DNA of 14,088 nucleotides from Magnetococcales bacterium (lineage in GTDB: Bacteria; Pseudomonadota; Magnetococcia; Magnetococcales; UBA8363): NCBI GenBank assembly GCA_015232865.1, contig JADFYU010000062.1, forward strand, positions 1 through 14,088. Reading direction: 5' to 3'. This document shows, one piece after another, positions 109 to 13,163 of this stretch; positions within the stretch are counted from its first letter, which is position 1, and the number at the start of each line of letters is the position of its first letter. Both the position numbers and the translations under genes were made by a program. A model generated the notes under the pieces. It saw only the letters and a list, made by a program, of their open reading frames with translations, did not search any database and was not told the DNA's origin.

Positions 109-142
109 TGGACCAGTGACCCTCTTCATAGTTTCTAGAAAA

Positions 143-287
143 GGCAGTTGGAAGTGCGTAAGCGGTGCAACATATTGGTTTATCTGGTGAACTAGAAAAA
201 ATCGAGGTCACCTTATTGGTGATGAGACTTTTTTCTAGTTTGCCAGGTGAATCAAGAGGTTGTGCCGATTGCGTGTTTACAACTGCC
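143..287 (+). repeat. 145-bp palindromic repeat element, copy 1
   Basis: Two 70-nt arms (143-212 and 218-287) surround a TTATT loop. Aligning the left arm with the reverse complement of the right arm needs no gap: I count 49 Watson-Crick pairs, and 12 further positions form G-U pairs if the plus strand is transcribed. The outer ends read GGCAGTTG...CAACTGCC. The inner stem is CTGG..AACTAGAAAAAA against its complement, and the tip stem is TCACC/GGTGA. The sequence is almost identical to the copy at 842-986, with 3 differences in 145 bases. Both strands have an open frame across it, but neither frame resembles a known protein. It is 13 bp downstream of the stop codon of the minus-strand gene at 301-612. 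It looks like a non-autonomous palindromic element (MITE or RPE type) or a repeated structured RNA. The orientation is assigned from the G-U pattern. Confidence 0.85.
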
Positions 288-300
288 GAATCTGGGATCA

Positions 301-612
301 TCAAACTGTCTGGCGGGGAATCCTGGCCACCAATTCAGCAACAACCCGCTCCAACTGCTCGGATGAAAGCTCCAATGTCGCCAGTTTTGCATCGGCACCC
401 GCCCAAAAAGCGCGCTGACTTCCAAACAAAAAGCGCATCCGACCGACGGCGTCCTCTTCTACGGTCACATGACCCAACGGGATGCTCAATGAAGAGTCAT
501 CACCTTCCACCCCAAACTCTCCGGTAATCAGGCTGGCCGATAGATCATAATTTTTGTTTGGATAGGTCGCTTGATTGAATCCGTACGCCTGATTTATCCA
601 TTTAATGTACAT
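301..612 (-). CDS. Hypothetical protein, 103 aa
   Basis: I do not recognise this protein. The start at 612 is preferred because GGAGAGG lies about 4 bases upstream; the frame extends 17 codons further to 663 without a comparable ribosome site. The product starts MYIKWINQAYGF, has no signal peptide or membrane segment, and is acidic in the middle (EGDDSS, TVEEDAVG). It ends in a probable amphipathic helix (LSSEQLERVVAELVARI), which suggests a small soluble protein. It contains no cysteine or metal-binding motif. It is flanked on both sides by copies of the palindromic element, and its stop codon is 13 bp from copy 1, whose stem could shape the 3' end of its mRNA. Codon composition matches the neighbouring genes. 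It is probably a real gene with unknown function. Confidence 0.55.
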   Translation of the reverse strand: MYIKWINQAYGFNQATYPNKNYDLSASLITGEFGVEGDDSSLSIPLGHVTVEEDAVGRMRFLFGSQRAFWAGADAKLATLELSSEQLERVVAELVARIPRQTV

Positions 613-651
613 GACACCTCTCCATTTTCCGGACCTCTTCACCCCCATTTC

Positions 652-680
652 ATTCTGAAACATTGATCGAATACCGACAA
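652..680 (-). promoter_or_regulatory. Possible sigma70-type promoter for the 301-612 gene
   Basis: Read on the minus strand there is TTGTCG (680-675), a 17-nt spacer and CAGAAT (657-652), each matching 4 of 6 consensus bases. It is about 40 bases upstream of the chosen start codon at 612. The position is reasonable but the match is weak. Confidence 0.25.
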
Positions 681-806
681 CCTCTTTAGCCCGATCTGAT
701 CCGATTATCGACGTGATGCGTATAAAGGTTTACTATTCACCGTCCCCCTTGGCATTCCGAGTAATATTACGAAAACAAGATAATTATCGACATCTTAGTA
801 ATTACA

Positions 807-835
807 TTGTCAATGTGTTAATATTCAATTATCTT
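807..835 (+). promoter_or_regulatory. Possible promoter abutting palindrome copy 2
   Basis: TTGTCA (807-812) is followed by a 17-nt spacer and TATCTT (830-835), matching 5 of 6 and 4 of 6 consensus bases. The surroundings are AT-rich. Initiation 6-7 bases after the -10 box would fall at 841-842, the first bases of the GGCAGTTG arm. A transcript from here would begin with the hairpin and could run into sqr at 1167, giving a leader of about 325 nt. This is inferred from pattern only. Confidence 0.35.
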
Positions 836-997
836 AGATTCGGCAGTTGGAAGTGCGTAAGCGGTGCAACATATTGGTTTATCTGGTGAACTGGAAAAAA
901 TCGAAGTCACCTTATTGGTGATGAGACTTTTTTCTAGTTTGCCAGGTGAATCAAGAGGTTGTGCCGATTGCGTGCTTACAACTGCCGAATCTAGGAT
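831..997 (+). repeat. Palindromic repeat element, copy 2 (145-bp core at 842-986)
   Basis: The core at 842-986 differs from copy 1 at three positions. Two are in the helix and keep pairing in plus-strand RNA: one is A-U to G-U in the inner stem, the other is G-U to G-C near the outer end. The third is in the internal loop. In this copy the pairing extends 11 bp outward (831-841 against 987-997), so the full inverted repeat has 81-nt arms. The direct repeat ATTAT occurs at 828-832 and 996-1000 and could be a target-site duplication, although five bases in AT-rich DNA is weak evidence. The element lies in the 554-bp gene-free stretch 613-1166. Apart from this element, the 1045-1098 relative and possible promoters, I see nothing in that stretch. 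Confidence 0.85.
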
Positions 998-1044
998 TAT
1001 AATTCTACATGGTATCCATTTTTTTCTTCATTCAGTTAGACGTG

Positions 1045-1098
1045 GGCAATTGGAGGAAACTGGTGTTCTGTTTTGCCAGGGACGTGACGACAACTGCC
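1045..1098 (+). repeat. Short degenerate relative of the palindromic element
   Basis: This 54-bp segment begins GGCAATTGG and ends CAACTGCC, like the outer ends of the 145-bp element. Inside it has ACTGGTG and TTTTGCCAGG, resembling the middle-stem sequences CTGGTGAACT and AGTTTGCCAGG of the full copies. The distal parts of both arms appear to be missing. Its right flank CGTTTCTAGGA is the reverse complement of sequence much like the left flank of copy 1 (TTTCTAGAAAAGG). It looks like an internally deleted derivative. The match is short enough that chance cannot be excluded. Confidence 0.45.
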
Positions 1099-1166
1099 GT
1101 TTCTAGGATAATGGAAATGAGGCGCATTGGCGCACGATCTTAACAACTACTCAAGGTGGACGATTT

Positions 1167-12479: not shown

Positions 12480-12962
12480 TCACTCATCATATGTTTTGAT
12501 CAATTCCTCGCCGAACGGTTCCAGAATGACCAGTAAAGCTGGCGCATGTTGGGGAAATCGGCTTTCAACAAAAGCAACCTGTTTTTGCAGCACATCTCTG
12601 GCAATAGCCAGATAAGGCGGTGGCGGGGTGGCCTTGACCAGGGCGTTCACGGTACGATCCAATGCCTGAGAGAGTCGGGTCAGGGCTTCAACCTGCTTGA
12701 TGGAATCCTGCACCTCCGCCTTGACCGATGCCATCGCTTCGGTATGGAGGAGCAGAAACTCCCCAAGCAAACGGTCGAGTTGGTGCTGTCGTGTGGTCTT
12801 GGAAAACCAATCTTTGGTCGTTGATCTCTTGATCCCGGCTGCGGCAGTTGGCTGTGCGTAATCGGTACAACAGTTTGATTTATCGAGAGAAACGGATTTG
12901 GATTTTTTCACACCACCCGGCCCGATTCGGGTCTGTGATGGGGGAGTGATCATGCGGCTCAT
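12480..12962 (-). CDS. Hypothetical protein carrying a palindromic-element insert
   Basis: I do not recognise this protein, about 160 aa from the ATG at 12962. Starts at 12953 (ATG), 12911 (GTG) and 13004 (TTG) are also possible, and none has a convincing ribosome site. The C-terminal two thirds looks like a genuine folded domain: helical, with a probable coiled coil (EVQDSIKQVEALTRLSQALD), a PPPP turn, and an end of APALLVILEPFGEELIKTYDE. The N-terminal part is low in recognisable structure. Residues about 27-40 (DKSNCCTDYAQPTA) are encoded by a half-copy of the palindromic element at 12843-12884. Because the repeat lies so near the N-terminus, it may have supplied new start and leader codons or sit just upstream of an unrecognised true start. 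The gene is followed by a ferredoxin gene 20 bp on and may work with it. Confidence 0.55.
   Translation of the reverse strand: MSRMITPPSQTRIGPGGVKKSKSVSLDKSNCCTDYAQPTAAAGIKRSTTKDWFSKTTRQHQLDRLLGEFLLLHTEAMASVKAEVQDSIKQVEALTRLSQALDRTVNALVKATPPPPYLAIARDVLQKQVAFVESRFPQHAPALLVILEPFGEELIKTYDE
12843..12884 (+). repeat. Diverged half-copy of the palindromic element inside a gene
   Basis: These 42 bases match the first 42 bases of the left arm of copy 1 at 35 positions without gaps, beginning GGCAGTTGG, with GTGCGTAA and CGGTACAACA inside. The rest of the element is absent. Translated on the minus strand the half-copy gives DKSNCCTDYAQPTA. The same strand and frame of the full copies gives DKPICCTAYALPTA, so the insertion uses the frame that is open in the element. 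Confidence 0.7.
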
Positions 12963-13163
12963 GCAGTGGCTGTCCCAATTCGAAATAGGTGAACATTTTT
13001 CCAACCAATCCGACTCTATGGAAAGACCCCCTTTAGCAAAAGGTGAAGGGATTCCGTTGTCTTTATTTTTTTCTTTGCAAGAGAGGTTAACAGCTCGGTA
13101 TTATTCATGCTAATATCCAACTTTGAGGCGAGTCTTACCTATTTTACCAAGTCTTATTGATTT

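Follow-up and report, generated by a model that had tools for sequence, protein, structure and literature searches.

Among the repeats described in bacteria, the Correia/NEMIS elements of Neisseria appear, by analogy, to be the closest in how it works to the element described here. They are about 105-155 bp long, with terminal repeats, a target duplication and a long RNA hairpin; the longer type includes an IHF site and transcripts are cut by RNase III, according to excerpts of two accounts (PMC2229807, PMC10969869). Set against those excerpts, the element here is alike in size, terminal repeats, duplication and hairpin, and has a predicted IHF site of its own. Correia elements in Neisseria, however, duplicate a TA target, whereas the element here carries a 5-bp duplication, occurs in other hosts and appears to have other ends. 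The one-strand conservation of G-U pairs reported below is not mentioned in the excerpted Correia/NEMIS sources. A core common to three classes, and near-symmetric ends set against a one-strand interior, are the features that distinguish the element from NEMIS/Correia.

ERIC, QMITE and other bacterial MITEs are intergenic, mostly shorter than 200 bp and transcribed into RNAs with stable stem-loops. The present element is likewise intergenic, short and stem-loop-forming, but it differs from them in ends and duplication and shares its core across three classes. REPs measure 20-40 bp, as given in an excerpt of one source (PMC3733652). REP/BIME sequences are similarly dispersed intergenic palindromes, whereas the element here is about 163 bp long and has target duplications. 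Integron attC sites are brought in by an integrase, leave no target duplication and lie in cassette arrays; the 5-bp duplications and dispersed copies rule against such a site.

Two copies in a Magnetococcales contig

The window, the whole stretch of 14,088 nucleotides analysed here, comes from a member of the Magnetococcales. It encodes a sulfide:quinone oxidoreductase-like protein with its closest match in Magnetococcus sp. WYHC-3 (76%) and a DNA ligase that was compared with four MAGs of the order, three of which share 71-73% identity and the other 59%. The initial annotation described a pair of near-identical 145-bp palindromes with ungapped 70-nt arms and a TTATT loop. The near identity holds, since the two 145-bp cores, spaced 699 bp apart, differ at only three positions (52, 64 and 134; 97% identity), and the long hairpin is confirmed. 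The TTATT loop is present in both copies. The palindrome, on the other hand, is not perfect: as DNA, the ungapped 70-nt arms of each copy contain 49 Watson-Crick, 12 G-T, one A-C and eight other mirrored pairs, and the plus-strand fold, which is nearly complete, includes G-U pairs, internal loops and one bulge. The best other 145-mer in the window reaches 37 Watson-Crick pairs and the best of 20 base-shuffled windows 35. Pairing survives between the two copies because two of the three differences merely swap A-U for G-U and G-U for G-C; position 64 is unpaired in the fold of copy 2.

The element also exceeds the 145 bp first assigned to it, as copy 2 extends over about 163 bp between outer repeats with a direct 5-bp repeat on either side (Table 1). 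Copy 1 has no target duplication (flanks TAGTT and ATCAT) and its two ends are unlike each other, a combination that would fit recombination or conversion.

Table 1. Positions of the element copies, their parts and related remnants in the window.
Feature	Position	Strand	Details
Element copy 1	134..296	+	outer repeats 134-142 and 288-296; core 143-287
Target-site duplication ATTAT, left of copy 2	828..832	+	
Element copy 2	833..995	+	outer repeats CTTAGATTC (833-841) and GAATCTAGG (987-995); core 842-986
Target-site duplication ATTAT, right of copy 2	996..1000	+	
Inner hairpin of copy 2, described by model R1	868..961	+	copy 1 equivalent 169-262
Predicted IHF consensus-fitting site WATCAANNNNTTR (AATCAAGAGGTTG), right arm of copy 2	949..961	+	copy 1: 250-262
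Right-end remnant of a different subtype, CAACTGCCGTTTCTAGG-ATAAT	about 1070..1116	+	
Remnant, left arm only	12842..12896	+	78% identity over 55 nt; in first part of DUF1804-match ORF

The left-arm remnant lies in an open reading frame (12480-13004, minus strand) whose match to the DUF1804 profile begins only at residue 69, and it falls within the unmatched first part, so an old insertion of the element may have changed the start of this gene.

The small minus-strand gene between the copies (301-663, annotated initially as 301-612) encodes a conserved hypothetical protein of about 103 aa with no Pfam match. It is real, having four homologues besides the window's own and matches in 12 of 48 Magnetococcales genomes. 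The idea that the two copies bracket this gene as a unit did not survive: none of the 12 related loci has a copy of the element near it, in flanks of up to about 1.5 kb on each side, although four of these genomes (G002, G004, G012 and G033) carry many copies elsewhere, and the bracketing consequently looks incidental.

Family, ends and spread

Comparison of the copies reveals common borders, CCTAGAWWC...GWWTCTAGG, with direct 5-bp repeats just outside. Exact ends were found at least 102, 53, 60 and 10 times in four genomes, as against 0, 0, 0 and 1 occurrences of the reversed pattern among those listed. From 113 located matches, 104 copies were aligned, with cut or short copies and the left-arm remnant set aside; a perfect 5-bp duplication flanks 62 of these, compared with 6.8% for ends paired from different copies. 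By genome (those with more than five copies), the rate ranges from 6 of 24 copies (G002) to 9 of 9 (G014). Nine poorly aligned copies were excluded from the segment, IHF and 135-copy counts, leaving 95, and the addition of 40 further loci gave a set of 135, in which 92 copies have a perfect duplication, most often TTTAA, TTAAA, ATTAT, TTCAA or ATAAT. These duplications stand in for empty-site orthologues as evidence of mobility. Fetched loci outside further analysis include L226-L230, L232, L233, L280-L283, L286 and L287. A tree of 86 copies has an arbitrary root and carries none of our conclusions.

At 163 bp (below 500 bp), with shared terminal inverted repeats, a target-site duplication and a non-coding interior, the element is, as judged from its sequence, a MITE. 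The initial proposal of a MITE-like family is thus supported: the copies are dispersed, have their terminal repeats in common and are in many cases flanked by 5-bp target duplications. A coding function was considered and rejected, as there is no codon periodicity (391/350/379). We note that one minus-strand frame (frame 1) is free of stops over the 145-nt core in 90 of the 135 Magnetococcales copies. This is not general: among the 26 cores from outside the order (93-94 nt), any one frame is open in 12 at most, with minus frames open in 7, 3 and 1 and plus frames in 0, 9 and 12, the frames of the two sets not being matched one to one.

The family is widespread in the order. Searching four Magnetococcales genomes with the 145-mer by blastn (E<=1) gave at least 41, 42 and 22 matches in three of them (at least 105 altogether) and none in the fourth among the matches listed; at a threshold of 0.001, at least 9 of 48 Magnetococcales genomes contain matches. 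R1, a covariance model that describes the inner 94 nt and leaves out the element ends, raised this to at least 10 of 48 genomes at 0.01, with at least 85, 75, 68, 57, 44, 30, 20, 11, 1 and 1 matches each, numbers in which one place can count on both strands, so that copy numbers are uncertain. R1 also hits the minus strand of the same copies with lower scores, and the tenth genome (G039) is positive through one weak match (E 0.0025). The dispersed-copy check suggested in the initial annotation, blastn together with a covariance model, has returned tens of copies in relatives.

Outside the order, R1 at 0.001 found at least 25 positive genomes in a 299-genome sample of the phylum, nine of them Magnetococcales and 16 from elsewhere, among the latter one (G203) that encodes a protein 100% identical to a Mariprofundaceae protein. 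A second sample of 398 genomes at 0.0001 gave at least 25 positives, 24 already present in the first. A MAG of the Ectothiorhodospiraceae holds at least 23 R1 matches on many contigs, one place being matched on both strands; five other genomes searched alongside had none among the matches listed. Of the 20 loci fetched from genomes outside the order, 19 show by eye a CCTAG-type end on at least one side (the end at L275 is degenerate), as do all five gammaproteobacterial loci opened from the at least 23 matches. Because R1 was built without the ends, their presence is an independent check that the outside matches are the same element and not any hairpin.

Plasmids and phages gave no blastn match to the window element, nor did plasmids to two variants from outside the order. 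A left-arm pattern scan of genome contigs, probably with too strict a pattern, and an apex pattern scan of viral contigs both returned zero matches. We found no account of the element in the titles and abstracts of open-licence literature on MITEs or palindromes of Magnetococcus and Mariprofundus. A number of copies sit at contig ends, and the element seems to break assemblies; R1 can be used to annotate this abundant repeat in magnetotactic and iron-oxidising bacteria.

Several 44-55-bp mini-palindromes consist of the two ends only (L219, L220 and L221 in G012, and 5733-5787 of contig C171 in G203). L219 and L220 retain a TTTAA duplication, while none is visible at L221. These scars look like hairpin deletions between short repeats, with a mini-MITE as the alternative.

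One-strand folding and its possible causes

Folded as RNA, the plus strand of copy 2 reaches -88.1 kcal/mol (z -15.2), a value that none of 200 shuffles equals, and even as DNA the plus strand (-42.4) folds better than the minus strand (-23.9). The plus strand is the better folder in all 106 Magnetococcales copies compared, for which likeness to the window, not folding, set the orientation. Among copies from elsewhere, which were oriented by R1, it folds better in 20 of 20 and in 5 of 5. Across 104 copies and 72 pairs, 5476 cells are Watson-Crick, 1234 G-U, 184 A-C and 566 other, with 28 gap cells. Known RNA families are not represented, as no Rfam model matches the window at gathering score; below it, copy 2 matches miRNA-precursor models and one snoRNA model, and six other loci gave one unrelated match.

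Covariation was assessed in alignment A2, the 62 sequences that remain from A1 (64 copies below 95% identity) after removal of L126 and L183 by hand. Over 72 pairs, 90.7% of cells are paired, compared with 34-43% in slid structures, and 375 cells are changed on both sides, compared with 128 +- 12 in shuffles. The number of pairs with a both-side change, 38 as against 31.4 +- 2.5, was reached by 4 of 500 shuffles, and none of the 500 matched the other measures. By the cell and score measures A2 stands far above the slid structures, though by pair count a slide of +2 reaches 37 and one of +3 reaches 38 (observed 38). Similarly, 26 sequences from outside the order, in an alignment fitted to the model, have 85 both-side-changed cells compared with 26 +- 5.

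The interior is further distinguished by the kind of imperfection that it accumulates. In 135 copies, G-U outnumbers A-C by 1505 to 98 (15.4) in the interior and by 128 to 61 (2.1) in the terminal repeats. By segment, in 95 copies, the terminal repeats have a ratio of 1.5 and the outer arm one of 12.6; the segment adjoining the IHF-like site reaches 33, and the values for the inner arm and the apex are 9.3 and 7.6. Terminal and interior pairs of the same copies thus provide a built-in control, which makes selection on MITE hairpins as RNA directly testable. As far as sequence goes, covariation and strand-specific G-U pairing also support the earlier suggestion of a mobile structured RNA: the terminal repeats look like a DNA signal, acting nearly as plain DNA signals, and the interior resembles a fold that selection has kept in RNA or in single-stranded DNA.

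Recent mutations display the same bias in weaker form. Scored relative to unanimous close relatives, private interior mutations give G-U:A-C ratios of 30:17, 31:12 and 27:12 at 85, 88 and 92% (p 0.08, 0.005 and 0.02), and those in the terminal repeats 11:16, 4:8 and 8:8; a smaller earlier set that included part of the terminal repeats gave 25:8. Because this bias of about 2:1, which is non-significant at one of the three thresholds, is far weaker than the accumulated one, the data suggest that selection bears chiefly on those copies that continue to transpose.

We consider it probable that the element is a MITE moved through its duplex-DNA ends, with an interior plus-strand hairpin under selection, likeliest as transcribed RNA. 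In such a scheme, a transposase supplied in trans would recognise the CCTAGAWWC (GGCAGTTG) ends in duplex form and place the element at WTNAW sites, which are AT-rich and mostly intergenic; the 5 bp duplicated there would point to a DDE transposase. The interior would form a second layer. Both the covariation and the strand bias argue that selection holds its plus strand in a long hairpin, of which the apical helix is conserved and the wobble pairs are often kept. The transcribed hairpin RNA would bear on how the element spreads or is tolerated: a transcript crossing it could form an RNA duplex of about 80 bp, a natural substrate of RNase III, and host mRNA might be cut or shielded as a result. 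RNase III action on host transcripts has been reported for the NEMIS/Correia elements of Neisseria in excerpts of two sources (PMC2229807, PMC10969869). G-U pairs in place of perfect complements may additionally keep the DNA from becoming a perfect long palindrome. Cells tend to delete such palindromes. Bending of the DNA for transposition may be the role of the predicted IHF site that many copies carry in their right arm.

Several observations count against this explanation, among them the weak recent bias, the lack of a matching transposase among the loci opened and the ends listed, and the absence of the IHF consensus from some groups of copies. There is no preferred orientation toward neighbouring genes, unlike what a cis-acting RNA might show: gene orientation is the same as or opposite to that of the copy in 58 and 43 cases upstream and in 51 and 50 downstream, as determined from simple calls of open reading frames of at least 90 aa. 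The terminal repeats, moreover, also lean toward G-U (128:61). G-T pairs favour single-stranded DNA hairpins as well, and on sequence grounds RNA over single-stranded DNA is not proven. Copies occur in both orientations, so any strand bias of the host should cancel. Of 109 copies, 24 overlap an open reading frame of at least 90 aa, 19 of them antisense.

It is unlikely that the element is an ordinary MITE whose hairpin is a by-product of its arms, kept similar by mutual correction or by the youth of the copies. The ends, duplications and groups of near-identical copies suffice for a MITE, and recent interior mutations do drift, with 30-38 transversion mismatches compared with 27-31 G-U changes. 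Correction between arms, however, would restore the complement on both strands and not G-U on one, the G-U:A-C ratio in the same copies is 15:1 inside and 2:1 in the terminal repeats, and covariation extends to copies outside the order.

It seems distinctly improbable that selection acts on the hairpin as single-stranded DNA, through a nuclease or transposase that recognises one strand, as happens with REP palindromes and integron attC sites. DNA hairpins tolerate G-T wobble and the DNA fold likewise favours one strand, but the direct 5-bp duplications and near-symmetric ends would indicate a DDE enzyme that works on duplex DNA, and the lack of an orientation preference toward genes also counts against it.

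We give very little credence to the explanation that DNA-protein sites in one arm, for instance for IHF, impose the asymmetry. The IHF consensus is matched on the plus strand by 52 of 95 Magnetococcales copies (chance 0.3% per strand by base shuffling), always at one place in the right arm (48 copies at position 122, four at 121), and by 16 of 26 cores outside the order. Such sites would nonetheless yield mismatches of all kinds and not G-U only, and the bias is strong away from the site (12.6:1, 9.3:1 and 7.6:1 in the outer arm, inner arm and apex). The consensus is missing from the examined copies of G014 (9), G035 (14), G033 (2) and G009 (1) and from all five gammaproteobacterial cores, yet G014 and G035 still show G-U:A-C of 95:3 and 187:34. 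In G001, it fits on the plus strand in 17 of 20 copies and on the minus strand in 10 of 20, the latter being the only minus-strand fits among the 95. The predicted site could explain part of the asymmetry of the nearby arm, not the rest.

The spacing and 97% identity of the two copies might suggest that they arose by one local duplication at the small gene, the finding that the initial annotation named as its own refutation. This alternative is refuted by the tens of dispersed copies in relatives and by copy 2 having an ATTAT duplication of its own.

Returning to a MITE with a selected transcribed hairpin, a more speculative version, which we regard as unlikely, would make the hairpin RNA part of the mobility mechanism. 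The elements would then be class-spanning, RNA-dependent miniature transposons whose ends are read as DNA, while the wobble-folded transcript of one strand helps in trans, for example by binding transposase or target, or is needed for amplification. MITE interiors are usually seen as free to drift and MITEs as staying within close relatives; here, a one-strand fold and core letters are kept in Magnetococcales, at least one zetaproteobacterial genome and a gammaproteobacterial MAG.

Candidate transposases and nested insertions

The initial annotation proposed looking for a transposase with matching terminal repeats; none was found among the loci opened and the ends listed. The ISEcp1 (IS1380 family) repeat CCTAGATTCTACGT, which occurs alongside the name ISEcp1 in six listed papers, has the same first nine letters as the CCTAGATTC ends of the element. 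ISEcp1 makes a 5-bp AT-rich duplication. PF13701 is encoded in 5 of 11 genomes searched; of the 11, ten have the element (G039 weakly) and G003 lacks it. The 17 IS1380-type loci fetched from these five genomes, however, have no element-like pair of ends around the transposase in the fetched flanks, though one of them (L255) holds the end of an ordinary copy, and the resemblance to ISEcp1 is only a lead. MAG contigs break at repeats, and no autonomous partner with the same ends appeared among the ends listed and loci opened.

Three pairs of ends 1-3 kb apart, among those listed, were opened as candidate autonomous elements, and each proved to be something else. At L279, host genes lie between two element ends. 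L278 (G162:C3) holds an insertion sequence in the right arm of a copy, DDE-type by eye, with its frame in two pieces and a direct ATGTAT repeat on both sides. In L218 (1081-2560; G012:C277), an IS110-family insertion, with a recombinase assigned by eye, occupies the apical loop of a copy between CACCTT and ATTGGTG. IS110 elements that prefer the hairpin loops of repeats are known from REP; the insertion here is a single case, as its protein gave one match in the 12 genomes searched. At L112 (G002:C41), an IS1380-family element directly adjoins a partial right arm of a copy (AATCAAGAGGTTGTGCCAGTGATG) and seems to have inserted into the hairpin element.
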